A DNA stretch of 64,000 nucleotides, from NCBI RefSeq assembly GCF_004331915.1, contig NZ_CP036528.1, positions 289,006-353,005 on the forward strand. Reading direction: 5' to 3'. The translations under genes were made by a program, and so were the position numbers. Numbering within the stretch: the first letter of the stretch is position 1; each line of letters begins with the position of its first letter. This document shows positions 8,755 to 59,368 of the stretch, one piece after another. The notes beneath the pieces are model-generated. The model searched no databases. It was given only the letters and a program-made list of their open reading frames with translations, and was not told where the DNA came from. Source of the stretch: Ureibacillus thermophilus. GTDB lineage: Bacteria > Bacillota > Bacilli > Bacillales_A > Planococcaceae.

Positions 8755-8862
8755 TCCTCTTATCTTTCAGACAAACGTCTGTAGGATTTAGCACCTTTGC
8801 AATTTCTTGCAGGTTGCCGGGCATCTTTGGGCCTAGTCCCTCCGCCTCTCTTGATAAGAGTA
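8755..8862 (-). promoter_or_regulatory. SAM-I (S-box) riboswitch
   Basis: Minus-strand motifs in order: CTCTTATCAAGAGAGGCGGA, GGGACTAGGCCC, GATGCCCGGCAACC, GGTGCTAAATCC, and the closing GATAAGAG. These are the classic S-box elements in correct order. The closing strand is near the start of the terminator stem, giving a transcription-termination switch. Confidence 0.96.
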
Positions 8863-25548: not shown

Positions 25549-25678
25549 GTTTACAAAAAAATCCTTTAGCTGTTTTCACCTTAAATAATTGACTTTTTCT
25601 TGAGAAGATACTTACTTGCGTGAAATTACATATTCCATTACTATTACAATAAAGCTGCGTTGTACGTAGAATATTAAG

Positions 25679-25893
25679 TTTTAACCTTTGAACTGTAAAA
25701 GGGAGTTTTAGATCGAAGGTGGAATGGCGGGCGTCACACTGCGGTGAATGACGATAGACAGGAAACCTTCTGCGAACACCCACCTGGTGGAGTCGTGGTT
25801 TTAAAACTTTCTATAATATTACGGCAAGGCGGCTTATTTATCACAAACATGATGTTTGTAAAATGGCTCTCCGTTCAGGAGGGCTTTTTATTT
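25679..25893 (+). ncRNA. Candidate structured RNA of unknown type
   Basis: TTACAA (25644) and TAGAAT (25667) with 17-nt spacing could start a transcript near 25679, and a terminator (GCTCTCC/GGAGGGC then TTTTTA) ends it at about 25893. Between them GGGAGTTTTAGA (25701-25712) pairs with TTTTAAAACTTTC (25799-25811), AGGTGG (25717) with CCACCT (25780), and CGTCACAC with GGTGAATGACG forms a hairpin inside. The GC content is well above the flanks and no frame is convincing. A 6S-like RNA was considered; I cannot confirm it. Confidence 0.4.
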
Positions 25894-29308: not shown

Positions 29309-29359
29309 CTAAAACTCGAAACACAATCAATACAAAAATAGACAAAACGAGTCCCAGCA

Positions 29360-29452
29360 ACCACTTCCCTTCGCTAGCATTACCTAGTGCAGGTTCAAAG
29401 GGTTGAGGCAATGCCTCTCTCAGCTAATGAATTAGCACCCCTAGTGATTAGT
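29360..29452 (-). promoter_or_regulatory. TPP (THI-box) riboswitch
   Basis: Minus-strand elements in order: TAGGGGTGCT, GCTGAGAGAGG, ACCCTTTGAACCTG, AGGTAATGCTAGCGAAGGGA. The downstream terminator makes it a transcription-off switch when thiamine pyrophosphate is high. The rest of the 29253-29687 gap shows only the two hairpins and AT-rich sequence. Confidence 0.95.
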
Positions 29453-53380: not shown

Positions 53381-53571
53381 TGTTTTTAAAGTGGGGAAAT
53401 GCCTCAAATCGGCTAATTGTAATCTATTGGAAAATACAGCAAAAGGTGGGGATACATCCGCAAATCCCCAGTCACTGACAAACGTTCATGCCCTTCCTCA
53501 TCTATATGAGCTGTTCTTTGAAGAGCAAACAATATTTAGCTATAGTATAAATACATAAGTGAGGGATGAAG

Positions 53572-54126
53572 ATGATTCAATCGCTATACGTATCAGGTTA
53601 CAAATCCCATGAGCTGGGGATATTTCATGCAAAACATCCGGGTATCCAAATCATTAAAAAAGCTTTAGAAAATGAATTAAGAAGATTAATCCATGAAGGA
53701 TTGGAATGGGTCATTATCAGCGGACAACCCGGAGTTGAAACATGGACTGCCGAAGTTGTGATTGGGCTAAAAGAAGAATTTCCACAATTCAAATACTCCG
53801 TTATTACTCCATTTTTGGATATGGAAAAAAACTGGAATGAAGAAAAGCAGGAAAAATATGCCTATATTCTGAGTAAAGCCGATTTCGTGACAAGCGTAAC
53901 AAAAAGACCTTATGAAGCTCCTTGGCAATTTGTTGAAAAGGACAAATTCATTATCCAAAATACCGATGCCCTCCTCCTTGTCTATGATGAGGAACATGAA
54001 GGATCTCCAAAATATTTAAAGCGGCTTGTGGAGAAATATATGGAACGAAACGAATATGAACTTTTTACAATCACTTCTTACGATTTACAAACCATTGCGG
54101 AAGAAATCATGAGGTCTGAATGGTAA
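53572..54126 (+). CDS. ypsA: YpsA-like SLOG-fold protein (DUF1273)
   Basis: 184 residues with a SLOG/Rossmann-like fold: SLYVSGYKSHELGIF at the start, WVIISGQPGVETWTAEVV and NTDALLLVYDEEHEGSPKYL, the usual DUF1273 motifs. YpsA proteins affect cell division and redox balance in Bacillus; binding of a nucleotide-derived ligand is suspected. Length normal. ATG 53572 has GAGGG 6 nt upstream; ATG 53566 overlaps it. Confidence 0.88.
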   Translation: MIQSLYVSGYKSHELGIFHAKHPGIQIIKKALENELRRLIHEGLEWVIISGQPGVETWTAEVVIGLKEEFPQFKYSVITPFLDMEKNWNEEKQEKYAYILSKADFVTSVTKRPYEAPWQFVEKDKFIIQNTDALLLVYDEEHEGSPKYLKRLVEKYMERNEYELFTITSYDLQTIAEEIMRSEW

Positions 54127-54154
54127 TGTTTATAAAATTATTGAAATTTTCTTG

Positions 54155-54187
54155 TTGACATTTTAATTGATAATGATTATCATTATC
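54155..54187 (+). promoter_or_regulatory. Fur-box promoter
   Basis: TTGACA (54155-54160), 17-nt spacer, TATCAT (54178-54183), with a near-perfect 19-bp Fur box GATAATGATTATCATTATC (54169-54187) over the -10. Transcription should start near 54190 and be strong when iron is scarce. Confidence 0.85.
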
Positions 54188-54189
54188 GT

Positions 54190-54321
54190 AAAGAGATAAT
54201 TCCGAGCTGAACCCCCCAAAAAATAATCTCGGATAAATATTTTCCTAATTATTTTCTCCAATTATGTCTATATCCCCCTATATATAGACATTAACTAGGC
54301 TGCAACTGGCGTGTTGCAGCC
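54190..54321 (+). ncRNA. Fur-controlled leader or FsrA-like small RNA
   Basis: Three hairpins follow the promoter: TCCGAG/CTCGGA (54201-54233) with CCCCCC in the loop; TGTCTATAT/ATATAGACA (54265-54290) with CCCCC in the loop; and GGCTGCAAC/GTTGCAGCC (54298-54321), followed by AAATTTCTATT. C-runs in loops that could bind Shine-Dalgarno sequences are the hallmark of iron-sparing FsrA in Bacillus. The last stem lacks a good T-run, so the transcript may also read into fumC (54397). Confidence 0.5.
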
Positions 54322-54396
54322 AAATTTCTATTATCAATCCATCTTTTAGGTTAAAATACATTTATCAATACTTCATCATAAAGGAGTTGTATCAAA

Positions 54397-55785
54397 ATGG
54401 AATACCGTATTGAAAGAGATACGCTAGGTGAAGTGCGTGTTCCAGCAGATAAAATTTGGGGGGCACAAACACAACGCAGCAAAGAAAACTTCCAAATCGG
54501 CACAGAGAAAATGCCAAAAGAAGTTATTCGCGCTTTCGCTATTTTAAAAAAATCCGCAGCAATTGCCAATAAAAAATTAAATAAATTATCAGAAGCAAAA
54601 GCGAATGCCATTATTACTGCTGCAGATGAAATTCTTGAAGGCAAATGGGATGACCAATTCCCGCTTGTTGTTTGGCAAACAGGCAGCGGCACCCAATCCA
54701 ATATGAATGTGAATGAAGTAATCGCCCACCGCGCAAACCAACTATTAGCAGAACAAGATTCATCTGAAAAAGTTCATCCAAACGATGATGTCAACATGAG
54801 CCAAAGCTCCAACGACACATTCCCAACAGCATTGCACATCGCCGCTGTTGAAATGGTGGAAGATTATTTACTTCCTCGATTAGAACTATTGAAAAATACA
54901 TTAAAAGAAAAGTCCGAAGCCTTCAAAGATATTATCAAAATCGGCCGCACGCACTTGCAAGATGCAACGCCTTTAACACTTGGACAAGAAATCAGCGGCT
55001 GGCACTATATGCTTGAGCGCTCTGAAGCAATGATTAAACAAAATACAGAGTACTTAAAAAGCTTAGCAATCGGTGGTACAGCCGTTGGTACAGGCATCAA
55101 CGCCCACCCAAAATTCGGCGACATGGTGGCAGAAGAAATCAGCAACCTTACCGGCAAAAAATTCGTTTCTTCCCCAAATAAATTCCATGCCTTAACAAGC
55201 CATGATGAAATTGTTGCGGCTCACGGTGCCTTAAAAGCATTAGCAGTGGATTTAATGAAAATTGCCAACGATGTAAGATGGCTTGCTAGCGGCCCTCGCA
55301 GCGGTATTGGGGAAATTACGATCCCTGCCAATGAACCTGGAAGTTCTATTATGCCTGGCAAAGTAAACCCTACACAATCTGAAGCCATGACAATGGTGGT
55401 AACACAAGTAGTAGGAAATGATGCAACAATCGCCTTTGCAGCCAGCCAAGGTAACTTTGAACTAAACGTATTTAAACCAGTCATTATTTATAACTTCTTG
55501 CAATCAGCACGTCTCCTTGCAGATGCAATGAAATCCTTTAATGACAAATGTGCAGTGGGCATTGAACCAAATCATGAGGTGTTAAAACGCAACTTAGAAA
55601 ATTCTTTAATGCTTGTGACTGCATTAAACCCTTACATCGGCTACGAAAACGCAGCAAAAATTGCGAAAAAAGCCCATGCAGAAGGAACAACATTAAAAGA
55701 AGCAGCTCTTGCCCTTGGCTTATTAACAGAAGAACAATTCGACCAATATGTAGACCCGAAAAAAATGATTTATCCAAATGCTTAA
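54397..55785 (+). CDS. fumC: Fumarase class II (iron-independent)
   Basis: 462-residue fumarate hydratase of the TCA cycle, a homotetramer without iron-sulfur cluster. SIGNATURE segment [18 protein letters not shown], the [16 protein letters not shown] loop and [16 protein letters not shown] supply the active site. AAAGGAG precedes ATG. An iron-free fumarase behind a Fur promoter makes sense: it could replace iron-dependent fumarase under iron limitation, though no direct proof of read-through is visible. Confidence 0.96.
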
Positions 55786-55801: not shown

Positions 55802-57033
55802 CAATCGAGTAGGAGGGAGCGATTAACTCCCGTCCTCTCACACCACCGTACGTACGGTTCCGTATACGGCGGTTCAATTAAGATCATTGACGCAAGTTTT
55901 CATAACGAGCTTCAAGACTTTTCAGCCCTTGGTTTCTCCAATAGGAGTTACCAAGGGGTCTGTGTAATATTGGACTATTTGAAATACGCCAATAACTCTT
56001 CCGAGTATTTCCCCATTCATACGCTTGCCATTGTGGTACGCCAAGTTGAATAAGGTTGCAAAGAATTTCTCCAAGTCCATATCTACAACCCATCGATGTC
56101 CATCTCTTATATATTCTTTCGCTTTCCTCACCGCATCATGGGCACTTCGGTTTGGTCGAAATCCGTAGCTGTTTTCAGAGAATGTAGGGTCATACACTTT
56201 TGAAAGTACTTGGGCGATTGCTTGTTGAATCAAACGGTCTGTTACGGTAGGGATTCCTAGTAAACGAACACCGCCGTCAGGTTTCGGGATTTCGACTCTG
56301 CGGACTGGCATTGGTTCATAAGTTCCCTTGAGAATTGCCTCCTTAATAGATAGCCAGTTTTCGACTATGTGCTGTCGTAGGTTTTGTACGGGCATCATAT
56401 CTACTCCGTGGCTTCCTTTATTCTGTTCTACACGTTTTAGTGCTTGAAGCATGTTCTCCCGTGACAGGATTTGATTCAAAAGCATCGTTATTCTCCTTCC
56501 GTGAATAGCTGTTCTCTTTATTCCAGTGGTCACTCCACCCTCCAAGAGGTCTCCCACGGGATTCACCGCTTCCTTCCTCAAGTGAGGTACTACGTTTTCT
56601 GTGTTCATCATGACTCACTGAATGCCAAGGGCTATTCTCTCTTAATTGTTCGGTCCTTCTTAGTTGTTCTAGACCAACTAATACTATGACCTCTGCTGAC
56701 TTCTGACGGTTCAGCTACTTATCACTAAGTAGGTTATGAAGCGTATTTCACCTATCCGCCAGACCTCCCCGGGTAAGTACATGCACTTTCACACCATCTA
56801 TCCGCCTCATTTACTCGATATGACCTTCGACAGAAAGAGCTTTGTTTTGTTTGGCAAACTCACTCAATCATACCTAGCCTTATATGAGGTTCGTGTTCCT
56901 CGGACCGGTGTTTTGCCTCCAGCTTCCTTCAGATTCCGCGTCACCACGGACACCCTTGCGTTGAGCTAACCTCTACTTCTGTCTTCGGGGTTCGGGACTT
57001 ACACCCTATCGTTCATGTACATGCCGGGCGCAC
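55802..57033 (-). mobile_element. Group IIC intron, copy 3 (about 1.23 kb, defective)
   Basis: Minus strand: 5' end GTGCGCCCGGCATGTACATG at 57033, domain I and linker regions, reverse-transcriptase frame, then domain V/VI ending near 55802. Longest of the three copies but still about 0.6 kb shorter than usual because the protein gene is internally deleted. It begins after the terminal hairpin and TTTTTTA of repeat B4 and ends 17 bp after the fumC stop. Confidence 0.88.
55884..56485 (-). pseudogene. Group II intron reverse transcriptase, internally deleted
   Basis: Starts at ATG 56485 (AAGGAG upstream; MLLNQILSRENMLQALKRVE) and runs through PVRRVEIPKPDGGVRLLGIP and SYGFRPNRSAHDAV to VVDMDLEKFF, then jumps out of frame near 56058-56062 to the conserved C-terminal end LIQLGVPQWQAYEWGNTRKS ... 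QGLKSLEARYENLRQ. The catalytic YADD motif and most of the RT and maturase regions, roughly 200 codons, are gone. It cannot support mobility by itself. Confidence 0.85.
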
Positions 57034-59214: not shown

Positions 59215-59269
59215 GATCGAAAGTACATAGACTTGTACATATATACAACATTCGACAAATCTATTTATC

Positions 59270-59342
59270 CCCTCATAGTCGACTTATTTACGGTAAGTCG
59301 GTAGAAACTTGCGAGCCATATTCCCGCGATTATATGAGTGCG
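59270..59342 (-). promoter_or_regulatory. Purine (guanine) riboswitch
   Basis: Minus strand: CACTCATATAATCGCGGGAA, TATGGCTCGCAAGTTTCTACC, GACTTACCGTAAATAAGTC and GACTATGAGGGG. The key pyrimidine before TATGAG is C (GACTATGAG), the guanine/xanthine form. It controls xpt-pbuX via the terminator. Confidence 0.96.
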
Positions 59343-59368
59343 ATAATATTTCATTATGAATGTTTATT

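Follow-up and report, generated by a model that had tools for sequence, protein, structure and literature searches.

The window, a 64-kb stretch of DNA from Ureibacillus thermophilus (genome G000; its genus, g1, comprises 25 of the genomes analysed), contains a putative iron-responsive element between a PRK13660-family gene at 53566-54126, which we take to be ypsA, and fumC at 54397-55785. A reading made from the sequence alone had described here a strong promoter with a 19-bp Fur palindrome over its -10 element, followed by two hairpins with CCCCCC and CCCCC loops and a third GC stem, and this description was confirmed in every detail examined. The features are listed below; the window clade is the set of five genomes G000, G018, G021, G020, and G015.

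54155-54183, plus strand: sigma-A type promoter, TTGACA, 17-nt spacer, TATCAT; 11 of 12 consensus matches
54169-54187, plus strand: Fur box, exact 19-bp palindrome GATAATGATTATCATTATC over the -10 element; 0 mismatches
54201-54233, plus strand: hairpin 1, loop CCCCCCAAAAAA at 54212-54223 (from the fold), where the class I fumarase start is predicted to pair
54252-54259, plus strand: single strand UUUUCUCC immediately 5' of hairpin 2 (read from the sequence)
54264-54291, plus strand: hairpin 2, CCCCC loop at 54274-54278, stem 54264-54273 with 54282-54291 (from the fold)
54298-54321, plus strand: terminator-like G+C-rich stem of 9 pairs (6 G-C) with the U-poor tail AAATTTCTAT (from the sequence)
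54380-54386, plus strand: fumC Shine-Dalgarno, AAAGGAG (read from the sequence; the same in all five genomes of the window clade)
54397-55785, plus strand: fumC, class II (iron-free) fumarase; TIGR00979 at 788.8 bits (cut-off 664.75)

Of 10 promoter-like sites between 53000 and 56000, where shuffles give an expectation of 7.1, this promoter ranks first. With up to 3 mismatches allowed, chance would produce only 0.04 Fur box matches in the window. The element has, by prediction, the Fur site that marks iron-sparing small RNAs (sRNAs) as a kind, in the form of an exact palindrome over the -10 element, and this box is retained in relatives. The RNA at 54190-54335 is predicted to fold at -35.9 kcal/mol (z -5.43), with none of 200 shuffled sequences equally stable. 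In hairpin 1, positions 54201-54206 pair with 54228-54233, and the CCCCCC run at 54212-54217 is predicted to be unpaired (0.99), unlike the C-run of G020, which is predicted to be mostly paired. The stem of hairpin 1 is present in 89.6% of cells in 16 leaders from the genus, a percentage matched by 7 of 500 shuffles; just two pairs are altered on both sides, which 146 of 500 shuffles match, so that covariation stands out from the shuffles in part only, and RNAalifold gives four pairs at -0.96 kcal/mol. The strand UUUUCUCC, which the sequence-only reading did not mention, is present in the fumC leaders of G018, G021, and G015 and absent from that of G020. In hairpin 2, GTCTATATCCCCCTATAT is invariant across all five genomes of the window clade; this second C-rich loop probably has other targets.

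At 54100-54420, no Rfam family, RsaE/RoxS included, is matched at gathering level; the matches there are at chance level (E 2.9-7.5), and assignment to any Rfam family was rejected on this ground. Elsewhere in the window, Rfam matches mark a SAM riboswitch (8757-8860), 6S RNA (25649-25839), a TPP riboswitch (29349-29452), and a purine riboswitch (59256-59357). The minus strand immediately beyond fumC (55804-56950) carries pieces of group II intron, recognizable by matches to Intron_gpII and D1D4 and by a partial reverse-transcriptase-like frame, and a further Intron_gpII match lies at 100-170. A second perfect-looking Fur box is found at G000:C1:239590 (L002, 1501-1522), upstream of a lipoprotein that, by eye, resembles a siderophore-binding protein.

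Distribution of the fumC leader and of a second Fur-box RNA

The relatives with the same element are either named Ureibacillus or are Lysinibacillus species placed in the same genus. A 271-base stretch is mostly conserved (78-84%) in four of them (G018, G021, G020, and G015), and 16 other members of the genus have a shorter fumC leader that consists of the Fur box and a single C-loop hairpin. A search of related genomes for the promoter and the C-rich loops, proposed in the sequence-only reading as a check, came out in its favor: among 70 fumC loci from 15 genera (25 loci of the genus, the next 5, and 40 picked from the matches listed; of the 19 sampled genera, g5, g6, g10, and g17 are left out, and coverage is thin where FumC is distant), 46 have a Fur box with no more than 3 mismatches ahead of fumC, and in 42 of these the box is followed by a C-run, that is, at least four C in a row within the next 130 bases. 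Both parts are present in 21 of the 25 loci of g1 and in every locus of g13 (8/8), g14 (9/9), g15 (1/1), and g19 (3/3). At the fumC loci of g16, the Fur box stands without a C-run (3/3); in g18, one of five loci has a Fur box and none has a C-run; and neither was found in the nine remaining genera (16 loci). When the whole collection of genome contigs was searched with the pattern of a Fur box plus ACCCC, 12 matches were obtained, 10 of them followed by fumC; the 11th lies in a stretch that stops short of the gene, and the 12th is in Paenibacillus, with no fumC there. In g14, the fumC leaders combine a C-loop hairpin and a long stem with a strand like UUUUCUCC, identical to it in several leaders. 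In g7 (L101-L103), a weak Fur-like box with 5 mismatches lies about 50 bases upstream of fumC, with no hairpins, and perhaps represents plain Fur control of fumC.

The two C-loop hairpins, which in the window clade both sit in the fumC leader, are distributed differently in 13 other genomes of the genus. There, the fumC leader has hairpin 1 only, or there is no Fur leader (G005, G006), and a second RNA lies elsewhere in the genome; it comprises a Fur box with 1-2 mismatches, a strand like UUUUCUCC, a C-loop hairpin, and, in the seven aligned copies, a terminal T-run. Model R1 matches 11 of the 13 at E 5e-6 or better, and five of the genomes that it found, from which it was built, match by construction; the matches in G007 (E 0.015) and G023 (E 0.09) have a Fur box 35-37 bases upstream. 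Judging from these parts, the second RNA looks like a stand-alone iron-sparing sRNA. It is located between other genes and has a CCCCCC loop (L011, L014, L017, L018, L019, L027, L030; around 1500-1700). A separate second copy in the window clade was rejected, given that R1 matches nothing in G000, G018, G020, and G015 even at E up to 1; in G021, R1 has a chance-level match only (E 0.72). In G011, where fumC has no Fur leader, a CCCCCC-loop hairpin (G011:C1:188006-188057, L287) matches R1 at E 0.029, with no Fur box nearby.

Complementarity to the class I fumarase start

The class I fumarase domain (PF05681) is encoded in all 25 genomes of the genus and in 111 of the 141 family genomes searched. 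The gene for this iron-sulfur enzyme, denoted fumA here, lies elsewhere on the chromosome than fumC. In the window genome, its product is a single chain that exceeds the cut-offs of TIGR00722 and TIGR00723 (Fe-S type); the fumarase equivalog cut-offs are not reached, so that a substrate other than fumarate is possible. The start of this gene is UUUUUUUGGGGGGAAAAUAACAUG, and the hairpin 1 loop CCCCCCAAAAAA is perfectly complementary to its Shine-Dalgarno over 12 bases. The leader accordingly contains a C-rich single strand that matches the ribosome site of an iron enzyme, another mark of iron-sparing sRNAs. Together with the conservation of the leader, this complementarity to an iron-sulfur enzyme gene supports the earlier proposal of an iron-economy device linked to fumC. 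The pairing of the loops with the starts of iron-protein genes had also been suggested as a check; the 12 pairs at the class I fumarase agree with it, and by duplex energy this start is 7th among the 64 GGGGGG starts of the genome, so that the ranking alone does not single out fumA, and duplex energy was dropped as proof of the target.

The loop and its predicted target were compared across the 35 genomes that have both a C-run leader and this fumA; a wider set of 36 also included G022, which has the Fur leader but whose class I entry is a different, shorter hydro-lyase, and G015 was left out with its fumA at a contig end. At least 9 contiguous pairs are formed in 30 of the 35 when G-U is allowed and in 17 with Watson-Crick pairs only. 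With partners swapped, the observed mean pairing was never reached in 10,000 trials, though related genomes do not provide independent cases. From lineage to lineage, the loop and its target vary in step (CCCCCUAG/CUAGGGGG, CCCCUCAGA/UCUGGGGGG, CCCCCUAAA/UUUAGGGGG), as the following pairs illustrate.

G000: loop CCCCCCAAAAAA, start UUUUUUGGGGGG; 11 pairs in G018, 10 in G020
G021: loop ACCCCCCAAAAU, start AUUUUGGGGGGU
G012, G016, G017: loop UGUACCCCCC, start GGGGGGUAUA, with G-U
G001: loop CCCCCUAAA, start UUUAGGGGG
Ten other genus members: loop CCCCUCAGA, start UCUGGGGGG, one U-G
g13 and g15: loop UUCCCCCCAG, start CUGGGGGGAA
G059 and G074: loop UCCCCCCAGAA, start UUCUGGGGGGA
G042: loop UUUCCCCCUAGA, start UCUAGGGGGAAA

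A test with one genome per loop class, in nine classes picked after the loops had been seen, gave a total with Watson-Crick pairs that 62 of 362,880 permutations reach; the result weakens when G-U is allowed (1,915 of 362,880) and weakens further when the energies are crudely corrected for accessibility (4,649 of 362,880). Under Watson-Crick pairing, no other partner outscores the true one in 6 of 9 rows and 5 of 9 columns; with G-U, this holds in 3 of 9 rows and 1 of 9 columns; the swapped combination of the G000 loop with the G012 start makes 14 pairs. The exceptions to pairing are G022; G013, where part of the CCCCUCAGA/UCUGGGGGG match is lost; G005, G006, G011, and G024, which have a G-rich fumA start yet a fumC without a Fur leader; g14, with only 5-6 C-G pairs between the loop and the fumA start; and g16 and g18.

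The G-run at the fumA start is itself commonly enclosed by a stem. Sixty class I starts were read, and 53 entered the stem test (G022, G060, and G040 have no four-G run, G052 and G034 have only four G, and G071 and G028 were left out as lacking a G-run, though G071, unlike G028, has CTGGGGGG). Among these 53 starts with at least five G, the run is flanked in 36 by complementary A/U arms of at least 5 pairs, as in ATATT-CTGGGGGG-AATAT, TATTTTT-CTGGGGGG-AAAAATA, and CTATT-TAGGGGG-AATAG. The mean flanking stem is 4.83. It falls to 3.82 when the downstream flanks are swapped, with none of 5,000 trials reaching the observed value, and to 2.65 when the flanks are shuffled (none of 2,000). Such a stem-flanked G-run was not found at the fumA start in G021, G012, G016, G017, and g14. 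The hairpin at the fumA start codon spans several genera, including g16 and g18, which have no C-run leader. In the window genome, six of the 64 GGGGGG start sites, fumA included, are stem-flanked. A predicted loop-loop contact between the C-loop of the sRNA and the fumA start hairpin is plausible.

GGGGGG start sites are frequent in the window genome: the distinct sites number 64, and the pattern matches 72 times, against 16 times for its reversed control. A scan of 21 of the 40 longer reading frames at these starts (fumA included) gave a family match for 18. The most viable alternative to a dedicated fumarase link, although in our estimate an unlikely one, is a general iron-sparing sRNA of the FsrA/IsrR type that adjoins fumC by chance and whose C-loops block the G-rich ribosome sites of many iron-protein genes, fumA being one of them. 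Three observations fit such an RNA. GGGGGG starts are found not only at fumA but also at other iron-related genes (lutB, hypC, and the genes for a Rieske-like protein, below cut-offs, and for a ferric-reductase-like protein); the 13 other genomes of the genus have a separate Fur-box C-loop RNA; and the succession of C-loop hairpin, C-containing strand, C-loop hairpin, and terminator resembles the order of parts described for IsrR (PMC9410917, as excerpted). However, non-iron genes, among them flgB, mreC, and whiA, account for many of the GGGGGG starts; the match between the hairpin 1 loop and fumA extends past the G-run, and both change together; and the position at fumC is kept across five genera.

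A purely cis-acting leader, in which the hairpins govern read-through into fumC or its translation and there is no target in trans, appears improbable. A stem of at least 9 pairs does lie between the C-run and fumC in 25 of the 26 leaders examined, followed by T-runs in g13, g14, and G042 (by eye) and, in the window clade, by a tail that is poor in U and possibly leaky. However, no mutually exclusive alternative fold was seen in the leader, and the matched changes with fumA would be left unexplained. The C-runs pair poorly with fumC's own Shine-Dalgarno, which contains GGAG, so that, by inspection, blocking of fumC in cis by the C-runs was judged unlikely and set aside.

Least probable of all is a coincidence between a G-rich fumA start hairpin with a job of its own (for example, as a protein site) and a fumC C-loop RNA with other targets: stem-flanked G-runs at fumA also occur in g16 and g18, whose fumC lacks the C-run leader, and no unlinked partner RNA with a Fur box and C-run was found in eight genomes of the g16/g18 type by an exact-pattern search that demanded six C and therefore can miss such a partner, but loop and target show matched changes in several lineages, and the exact 12-nt loop complement occurs in just two places each in G042 and G021, namely, the loop antisense and the fumA start.

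The window genome contains five copies of TTTTTGGGGGG: in the loop antisense, at the fumA start, at a truB start (by eye), in the interior of a gene-like stretch, and after a terminator-like hairpin. Extended by one T, it is left with three places, among which fumA is the sole start site. The truB-like gene (by eye, with a GTG start; L138, G000:C1:1470942), with TTTTTGGGGGG at its start and an 11-base match to the hairpin 1 loop, is a possible extra target.

The proposed fumarase switch and known iron-sparing RNAs

The reading that we prefer, at a probability of roughly two in three, is that the element encodes a Fur-repressed sRNA with two roles, serving as the fumC leader and silencing fumA while the iron-free fumarase is made. 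The sequence-only reading had offered an sRNA and a regulated fumC leader as alternatives; the evidence favors both at once, with the class I fumarase, which had not been named there, as the main predicted target. When iron is short, Fur would leave its box, and an RNA would be transcribed from the promoter ahead of fumC. The hairpin 1 loop would pair with the fumA Shine-Dalgarno and block translation of fumA. Many transcripts would end at the terminator-like stem, yielding an sRNA of about 130 nt, and the fumC mRNA for the iron-free enzyme would arise by read-through or from a promoter of its own. A single Fur-controlled locus would in this way silence the iron isozyme alongside expression of the iron-free one. 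The broader claim, that this is a one-locus metal-isozyme switch in which the fumC 5' leader is the antisense regulator of the iron-sulfur fumarase and the contact between C-loop and G-loop has co-evolved across several genera, is put forward tentatively, at somewhat less than an even chance. With its natural variants of loop and target as ready-made compensatory mutants, the sRNA-target pair lends itself to direct testing.

Iron-sparing sRNAs as such are known; what is new is the predicted link of the fumC leader loop to the class I fumarase start. Among the literature matches listed, none describes such a Fur-repressed switch between a fumC leader and fumA, and none describes an iron-sparing RNA in the family of the host. 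The comparisons below follow published accounts as excerpted. FsrA of Bacillus subtilis resembles the proposed RNA in being Fur-controlled, C-rich, and iron-sparing, and lutB, a gene of its reported target operon lutABC (PMC12871923), has a GGGGGG start in the window genome. The sequence-only reading had suggested a counterpart of FsrA: conservation and complementarity speak for the sRNA part of this idea, but homology was rejected because the gathering score of the FsrA model RF02273 was not reached, with none of the 25 genomes of the genus over the cut-off (compared to 1 of 14 control genomes) and four weak matches in the window genome, none of them at the fumC leader (none at 54100-54420 at E up to 10).

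IsrR of Staphylococcus is Fur-repressed, has C-rich loops in two hairpins, one C-rich single strand, and a terminator, and is predicted to block the ribosome sites of iron-enzyme mRNAs (PMC9410917). Its parts, compared by their reported order only, are arranged alike, but the excerpted text of PMC9410917 gives no fumC or fumarase link for IsrR. RyhB shares the iron-sparing logic (PMC9410917, PMC7377471, PMC12871923, PMC9294342). In Burkholderia cenocepacia, BrrF acts under low iron, with the iron-sulfur fumA lowered and the iron-free fumC up; unlike the RNA proposed here, BrrF, as presented in the excerpted text, is not a fumC leader (PMC7377471). The layout of the isozyme switch is closest to s-SodF of Streptomyces coelicolor, which is processed from a 3' UTR and where the enzymes are superoxide dismutases and the metal is nickel (PMC3919588, as excerpted), whereas the window RNA lies on the 5' side, with its own Fur promoter and a terminator-like stem, and concerns fumarases and iron. 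By analogy, the proposed RNA would follow the logic of FsrA, IsrR, RyhB, and BrrF in the layout of s-SodF and, if real, would make up a compact circuit, with a single Fur-controlled RNA swapping an iron enzyme for the iron-free version.
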